From Rhodoplanes sp. Z2-YC6860 (GTDB lineage Bacteria > Pseudomonadota > Alphaproteobacteria > Rhizobiales > Xanthobacteraceae), in the NCBI RefSeq assembly GCF_001579845.1, contig NZ_CP007440.1, positions 124,001 through 188,000 on the forward strand: a DNA stretch of 64,000 bases, in the 5' to 3' direction. Below, one piece after another: positions 48,488 to 48,732 of the stretch. The notes below the pieces were generated by a model that did no database searches, had not been told where the DNA came from, and saw nothing but the letters and a program-made list of their open reading frames with translations. Made by a program: the position numbers and the translations under genes. Within the stretch, counting starts at the first letter, position 1. Each line of letters opens with the position of its first letter.

Positions 48488-48552
48488 CTCCCTCTCCCGT
48501 GGGGAGAGGGTTGGGGTGAGGGCGTACGGACTCTCGATGGACCGTACCCCCT
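48488..48552. repeat. Left half of a dispersed palindromic repeat, split by IS110 element
   Basis: CCTCTCCC (48491-48498) pairs with GGGAGAGG (48502-48509), and GTACGG (48524-48529) with CCGTAC (48542-48547). The half stops at ACCCC-CT (48546-48552). The other half resumes at 49681 with CT-CACCCG. Joining them gives the continuous repeat 'ACCCCCTCACCCG', similar to the intact family member at 20762-20887. Confidence 0.8.
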
Positions 48553-48564
48553 TGTAATTCTCAT

Positions 48565-48732
48565 AGCCGCGACTCGTCTAAAGTTGTGGTCGCGGTGACG
48601 GGCGGGTGTCCGCAAACCCCGAGGTCTTGCAAGACCGTGGGTGAGCTTGGCGCCCCGCCCGCCGTTCCATCGAACCCGAACAGTCGCCTGGGCCGCAAGA
48701 AGCAAAGCTCGATTAGGCAAGGACGGGTCGCC
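48565..48732 (+). ncRNA. Candidate bridge RNA of the IS110 element
   Basis: Folding by eye gives a 5' stem-loop (CCGCGAC 48567-48573 with GTCGCGG 48589-48595), then a large internal-loop structure closed by CGGGCGGG (48599-48606) with CCCGCCCG (48654-48661) and topped by GGTCTT-GC-AAGACC (48623-48636). On its 5' side ACCCC (48616-48620) equals the left target before the CT core. On its 3' side GGGTGAG (48639-48645) is the complement of CTCACCC at the right target. In the following part ACAGTCG (48680-48686) equals the element's right end before CT. This is the layout known for IS110 bridge RNAs. Exact RNA ends are guesses. Confidence 0.75.

Follow-up and report, generated by a model that had tools for sequence, protein, structure and literature searches.

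The closest described relatives of the system analyzed here are the bridge RNAs of IS621 and the IS110 group. According to the parts of two reports on which we draw (PMC11208160, PMC11208158), the guides reside in a long left end (LE) with the target guides preceding the donor guides, the left guide reads the bottom strand and the right guide the top strand, the core is CT, and REP sequences serve as targets. The same part of PMC11208158 describes a discontiguous right donor guide with looped-out bases, pairing of the second core base, and the catalytic residues D11, E60, D102, D105, and S241. RNA-guided target choice by a DEDD recombinase has likewise been described for the seekRNAs of IS1111/IS110 elements; in the portion of PMC11187229 considered, the noncoding region lies upstream in the IS110 type, whereas the IS1111 members have the RNA downstream and subterminal inverted repeats (criterion 7-17 bp). 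ISPpu9 is an IS110-family element that resides in REP sequences and has a long structured region before the gene, and its small RNAs Asr9 and Ssr9 are described, in the sections of PMC8450116 used here, as leader and antisense RNA and not as guide.

Here we analyze an element, named A, in a window of 64,000 nucleotides from Rhodoplanes sp. Z2-YC6860 (contig NZ_CP007440.1). A resembles IS621 in the order of the guides in the LE and the strands that they would read, in the CT core, in its REP-like targets, in the discontiguous right donor guide, and in the catalytic residues. It differs from IS621 in that its recombinase is a distant orthologue (115 bits by phmmer), in the lack of a pairing for the second core base, and in that neither the 5' stem-loop nor the donor stem-loop is confirmed. 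The upstream noncoding region and the putatively RNA-guided target choice resemble the IS110-type seekRNAs, the 15-nt right end (RE) sets A apart from the IS1111 members, and both the location in REP-like sequences and the long structured stretch that precedes the gene resemble ISPpu9. From comparisons at the sequence level we consider, with a probability of roughly 93%, that A is an insertion sequence of the IS110 group and that an RNA from its left end acts as bridge RNA for its recombinase. It is thereby very probably a new example of an already known system. The features are collected in Table 1.

Table 1 Features of element A and its surroundings in the window.
Feature	Position	Strand	Remarks
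Left half of interrupted REP-like palindrome	48488..48550	.	Flanks, once joined, agree with uninterrupted copies
IS110-group element A, 1130 bp	48551..49680	+	Long LE (182 nt), short RE (15 nt); CT core at the left end
Putative bridge RNA, approximate span	48566..48732	+	Presumed 5' end; fold z -3.4; covariance model match
Target-loop stem, 5' side	48594..48606	+	Pairs with 48654-48668; 10/13 pairs with compensatory change, 44 sequences
Putative left target guide CAAACCC + core C(G)	48613..48621	+	Register common to relatives; ACCCC of the sequence-only reading = 48616-48620
Putative right target guide GGGTGAG	48639..48645	+	Complementary to CTCACCC 49681-49687; 7/7 bases in 5/5 copies
Putative left donor guide ACAGTCG + core C	48680..48687	+	Equals RE end 49674-49680
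Putative right donor guide TT(ag)GCAAG	48713..48721	+	Pairs with LE start CTTGTAA; two bases looped out, one G-T pair
DEDD/serine recombinase, 310 aa	48733..49665 incl. stop (coding 48733-49662)	+	Pfam, PDB matches
TTGACA, possible -35 box	49662..49667	+	Contains stop codon; would meet TGTAAT only in circle; presumed promoter function
Right half of interrupted REP-like palindrome	49681..49726	.	Starts with core CT and CACCC

Element A and its putative left-end guides

The genome (8.19 Mb, one contig) harbors five copies of A that are identical across all 1130 bases. Because these full-length copies stand at different genomic places, both ends of the element are fixed, and comparison of the five insertion sites gives them as left flank / CTTGTAATTC ... 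GAGACAGTCG / CTCACCC. The LE is far longer than the RE (182 versus 15 nt), as in the IS110 group, and the short RE differs from the long, RNA-carrying RE of the IS1111 group. The recombinase contains both IS110 Pfam domains (PF01548, E 5e-22; PF02371, E 3.8e-19), corresponding to the DEDD RuvC-like and serine Tnp domains of the IS110 group, and its sole matches in the PDB at E<0.001 were ISCro4 (E 3.9e-34) and IS621 (E 4.5e-32). The catalytic five of IS621 align to D9, E53, D95, D98, and S234 of A (hand-mapped, chain numbering +2), and all five are present. The recombinase appears intact. A search of the window against Rfam gave no match at gathering score.

A previous sequence-only reading had proposed four short LE segments as guides, and the strings on which it was based are all present: ACCCC at 48616-48620 and in the left flank at 48546-48550, GGGTGAG at 48639-48645 with its complement CTCACCC at 49681-49687, ACAGTCG at 48680-48686 and at 49674-49680, and CAAG at 48718-48721 opposite CTTG at 48551-48554. 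Such complementarity could in principle arise by chance in GC-rich sequence, and 20000 first-order Markov sequences matched in length were used to estimate the probabilities. CAAG (0.59) and ACCCC (0.21) are indeed expected by chance, whereas GGGTGAG (0.015) and ACAGTCG (0.009) are rare and reach 0.0001 jointly; all four matches in order were never found among the 20000 sequences. The signal is therefore carried by GGGTGAG as right target guide and ACAGTCG as left donor guide, both strong matches, ACCCC and CAAG being weak alone. The two joint 7-mers and the shuffle tests of guides against flanks described below make chance a negligible explanation.

Although CAAG is present and pairs as proposed, the right donor guide is longer and consists of TT (48713-48714) plus GCAAG (48717-48721), and the pattern TTnnnCAAG recurs in 41 of the 42 distinct guides compared below. 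Handshake bases may be placed directly after the two right guides, C at 48646 following the target guide and G at 48722 following the donor guide. The covariance model matched 48594-48728 with 138.8 bits, a score to be read with A's own sequence belonging to the training set of the model.

Insertion sites of A and its sister element B

CTCACCC is found directly to the right of A in all five identical copies. The joined flanks of the window copy match uninterrupted repeats of the same genome, the best with 95% over 109 bases across the join. Before insertion, the site was therefore a palindrome of REP-like type containing a single CT core. This is the precise insertion at a core dinucleotide, with a single core in the empty site, that belongs to the IS110 group. 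Judged by eye, A occupies the right arm of the palindrome in two copies (the window and L001) and the left arm in three (L002-L004). Intact ACCCCCTCACCC sites are still present at 17 places, and at two of these the site lies in the free arm of a repeat already holding a copy. A literature search for Bradyrhizobium IS110 elements in palindromic repeats yielded, judged by title, nothing on the present subject. On the REP arm at 49677-49728 (-) the Rfam family whalefall-1 (RF01762) scored 26.9 bits (E 1.7e-4 in a 1281-base search) and so stayed under the family threshold of 37 bits; in the part of PMC2864571 considered this is an RNA motif known from metagenomes only, and it may be a REP-type repeat.

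A sister element, B, with 69% DNA and 65% protein identity to A, is present in five copies in the same genome, four of them identical and one with 4 differences. B has the ends of A (CTTGTAA and ACAGTCG) and A's pairing bases in the donor guides, whereas its target loop differs and carries CTCATCCT and CCTCAG. In 5/5 copies the B sites read (C/G)TCATC-CT-GAGG (core set off by hyphens), matching B's own loop. The right guide of A fits 7/7 bases on A sites versus 3-4 of 7 on the five B sites, and that of B fits 6-7 bases on B sites versus 3 on A sites. Between A and B the target choice has changed along with the target loop while the donor side has stayed constant. Since donor ends and donor pairing bases are common to both, A and B might mobilise or recombine with each other's copies, each system possibly acting on the other's. 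All ten bridge RNA matches at E<0.001 in this genome belong to A or B copies, and no orphan bridge RNA was found at that threshold.

The sites of A could also be explained if the recombinase itself or the REP structure recognised the palindrome, with the left end acting as a structured 5' leader of the gene. The occurrence of all five A copies in REP-like repeats agrees with this explanation, and so does ISPpu9, for which the part of PMC8450116 considered describes a long structured 5'-UTR before the transposase gene. It does not, however, account well for B, which with a 65% identical protein resides in a different family of palindromes, one fitting the altered loop of B itself.

Co-variation in relatives and fold of the putative RNA

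To the best 80 of 246 relatives three viral loci were added, giving 83, of which 69 were examined; the other 14 were omitted by choice as cut, partial, duplicate, or distant, and four of these (L100, L101, L102, and L107) were used later in a distant-branch set. Twenty-one of the 69 were dropped because their ends could not be read by the patterns, leaving 48, to which the 10 copies of the own genome were added. After removal of L038, where the target loop is missing, 57 rows with 42 distinct guide pairs remained, 41 of them with the full right flank. Left ends beginning with TT were shifted one base by rule in this scoring.

In this comparison the right target guide fits its own flank far better than in shuffles. 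All five non-core bases fit the own flank in 30/41 distinct guides (at most 11 in 5000 shuffles), and the mean fit is 4.55 of 5 against a shuffled mean of 2.26 (sd 0.22, maximum 3.05 in 5000 shuffles, relatedness ignored). For the left guide, scored in whichever of two registers fitted better, the mean is 4.06 of 5 against 2.79 (sd 0.14, maximum 3.36 in 5000 shuffles, relatedness ignored), and 16/42 distinct guides are perfect, with at most 9 in the shuffles. Among the 11/41 imperfect right guides eight miss one base, including B, the sites of which vary at the final base. In L058 and L094 2 of 5 bases fit, the right end of L094 having perhaps been misread, and L032/L033, a single relative with the same guides, fit at the core only. 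The latter is a case of guides beside an unrelated flank, which the sequence-only reading had held to speak against guided insertion; no copy of A presents such a case. Guides in the LE that are complementary to target and donor and co-vary with them, as in the IS110 group, are thus found in these elements, the left target guide of A matching partly.

Collectively, the proposal that this copy was guided to its present site agrees with CTCACCC at 5/5 A copies, with the match of B's 5/5 sites to its changed loop, and with a co-variation in related copies far above that of shuffles. Such co-variation over 41-42 guides would be unexpected of a mere leader.

Outside the alignments, an element in the genome G103 has the right guide GGGTGAG, and CTCACCC was seen by eye beside 3/3 of the copies read, out of 5 model matches. 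This was the only new case when genomes of the family were looked at blind, where 8/27 loci had a readable left end and most of these 8 came from genomes already included. In the distant set 9 of 16 loci were read by eye, and eight of the nine (L098 to L102, L107, L190, and L193) share a CC core on the target as well as the donor side, and their guides end in GG; only L191 among the nine has the core CT. In these eight ACAGTTG is found in both the right end and the left donor guide, an agreement that recurs in the sX15-type elements below, and 6 or 7 of the 7 bases of their right guides find a match. Protein identity in the L098 group is 43%.

In a Microvirga MAG, L038 (1366-1503) has a bridge RNA without the target loop, a short hairpin being left, and a full-length recombinase match adjoins; the loss could be decay or, this being a single MAG, an assembly artefact. 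Apparent bridge RNAs of this kind in G061 and G076 were rejected as matches cut off at contig ends, which leaves L038 as the sole genuine case. In G002, from the same genus, L109 (1459-1540) preserves a piece of the left end of an element of this type, with 78% identity over 81 bases, and a genome-wide search of G002 gave no bridge RNA match at E<0.001.

The register of the left target guide deserves separate consideration, as the sequence-only reading took ACCCC to be this guide. The string does stand beside the CT core, but by homology the guide is CAAACCC+C(G) at 48613-48621, shifted by one base, and this guide fits the site poorly. In the 41 distinct guides other than A, the register with the core at guide index 7 gives match rates at positions -1 to -5 of 0.98, 0.80, 0.63, 0.73, and 0.63, higher at every position than the 0.61, 0.59, 0.37, 0.32, and 0.12 of index 8, to which ACCCC belongs; index 7 is the sole best in 22/41 guides and index 8 in 2/41, with ties in 3. 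Read in the common register, the left guide of A agrees with the site of the window copy at the core C and at -1, -2, -3, and -5, and misfits at -4, -6, and the core T; the mismatch at -4 is found in 5/5 copies.

A one-base slip in A is conceivable, in which ACCCC would pair with the left target while the core on that side would have no partner. In that register five non-core bases fit at 2/5 A sites and four at 3/5, and 3/41 background CTCACCC sites score at least 4, compared with 10/41 scoring at least 3 in the other register; the few relatives in which index 8 is best or tied point the same way. The high score is, however, due to the C-run in the left guide of A, and the near-identical guide CAAACCC-CT in G103 serves sites reading ACCC-CT, with three C. 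Moreover, the composition of the left flanks is that of the REP background: in a set of 42 distinct half-sites without an insertion (in or near repeats; 30 of 64 matches) the flank is ACCCC in 15, ACGCC in 7, and GCCCC in 5, and the occupied flanks are ACCCC (2), GCCCC (2), and ACGCC (1). ACCCC beside A is therefore expected from the repeat and is no evidence for the left guide. We regard a slipped register as unlikely and keep to the register common to the relatives. In either register the occupied sites do outscore the full set of 41 CTCACCC sites from a 464-kb sample, to which the REP context also contributes; among REP half-sites an extra selection on the left side of A could not be demonstrated, and a function of the left guide is hypothetical for A.

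The left target guide leaves the second core base T unpaired in A and, in the register chosen in the guide-flank scoring, in 15/42 distinct guides, unlike IS621, where this base pairs in the part of PMC11208158 considered. The two bases after the left donor guide ACAGTCG are CC in 21, CT in 17, CG in 3, and CA in 1 of the 42 distinct guides.

The RNA at 48566-48732 folds with -80.0 kcal/mol, and 0/200 shuffles were as low. In the sequence-only reading the left end was said to fold into the known bridge-RNA layout. The stable fold and a target-loop hairpin bear this out in part, but in the minimum-energy fold the two RNA ends pair together and separate 5' and donor stem-loops are absent; a 5' stem-loop is also missing from the consensus fold of the relatives. 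Over the target-loop stem and the other helices together, 82 doubly changed cells were counted against 23.1 (sd 5.3) in shuffled data, with 0/500 as high, whereas the two helices of the donor region are nearly invariant and show double change in 0/7 pairs. Co-variation thus supports the target-loop stem only, and not the donor stem or the 5' stem-loop; for the donor helices, given their near invariance, it speaks neither for nor against. A donor region of this kind would suit a leader as well, but given the sites of B and the guide-flank co-variation we find a mere leader very improbable and retain the bridge RNA reading.

Proposed transposition cycle and a possible antisense RNA

A promoter scan of 48480-48960 in the integrated copy gave no promoter. 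The LE contains a -10-like TGTAAT (48553-48558), which across the RE-LE junction is 15 nt from the TTGACA of the RE, and a TTGA-type hexamer (TTGAC, TTGAA, or TTGAT) lies 13 nt from the RE end in 47/47 relatives examined. By analogy with IS621, as described in the parts of PMC11208160 and PMC11208158 drawn on, A would leave as a circle, in which TTGACA would meet TGTAAT and the RNA would be transcribed. The first loop would then pair with the genomic target, mainly via the right target guide on CTCACCC, the second loop would pair with the RE-LE junction of the circle (ACAGTCG-CT-TGTAA), and the recombinase would exchange strands at the CT core. On this analogy, the circle would be the template of the RNA, the recombinase would bind it, and catalysis and handshake pairing would proceed as in IS621.

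In a permissive search the Rfam family sX15 (RF02234) matched the window at 48587-48734 on the minus strand with 27.0 bits (E 0.041, 1281-base search), which is not significant alone and leaves the left end of A short of the gathering score of 55 for membership. Among 398 genomes of the phylum, sX15 gave 13 matches in 5 genomes, one of them above threshold, and it had no match in 14 control genomes. All six matches with flanking sequence (L213, L215, L216, L217, L219, and L221) have an IS110 recombinase adjoining on the opposite strand, the recombinase match being partial in L213 and L217; the other seven all come from G510 and are at contig ends. Guides at these loci were picked by eye on the opposite strand, L217 being unscorable. 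L213 (120 bits) has the left guide ATAACGC+CT beside the flank CTAACGC-CT, three copies in G184 have a right guide that matches CTCCTAC with 7/7 bases and a left guide with 6-7 of 7 bases matched, and in L216 the right guide matches with 8/9 but the left with 3/7. A TwoAYGGAY RNA (RF01731; 47.3 bits, above the threshold of 43) was also seen at 9-111 of L216, near a second IS110 recombinase match at 143-1048. On Xanthomonas plasmids, two of 9 sX15 matches were inspected and had no IS110 gene annotated within 2.5 kb, and tblastn of 820 bases around one such match found no IS110 recombinase; these loci may be remnants.

Because of the opposite-strand recombinases and the guide matches, the sX15 matches look like bridge RNA read in antisense, and judged from these loci the family appears to represent the strand opposite to the bridge RNAs of IS110 elements. 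Presumably, sX15 was observed as a transcript of this antisense strand. In the literature listed for sX15, the term is a strain name in one paper and an entry of a table in another, and among the papers listed no link to IS110 was found; in the part of PMC3771888 considered sX15 is not named in the text. In ISPpu9 the antisense RNA Asr9 covers the 5'-UTR of the transposase and has its promoter within the first eight codons, as given in the part of PMC8450116 used here. As a tentative and on balance doubtful proposal, a full-length antisense RNA may overlie IS110 bridge RNAs and be able to mask both guide loops, sX15 being one such RNA, Asr9 a proven relative in kind, and A a possible producer of another. 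If true, RNA-guided transposition would be under antisense control. Should the connection hold, sX15, now filed in public as a stand-alone Xanthomonadaceae sRNA, would have to be classified anew.

The left guides, which often lack the second core pair, suggest that many natural systems can do without this pairing, although IS621 has it, a point of relevance for design rules. With the same ends, different target loops, and five copies each in a repeat family of its own, A and B resemble a natural loop-swap experiment, and the pair suggests how such elements can retarget while donor recognition stays.
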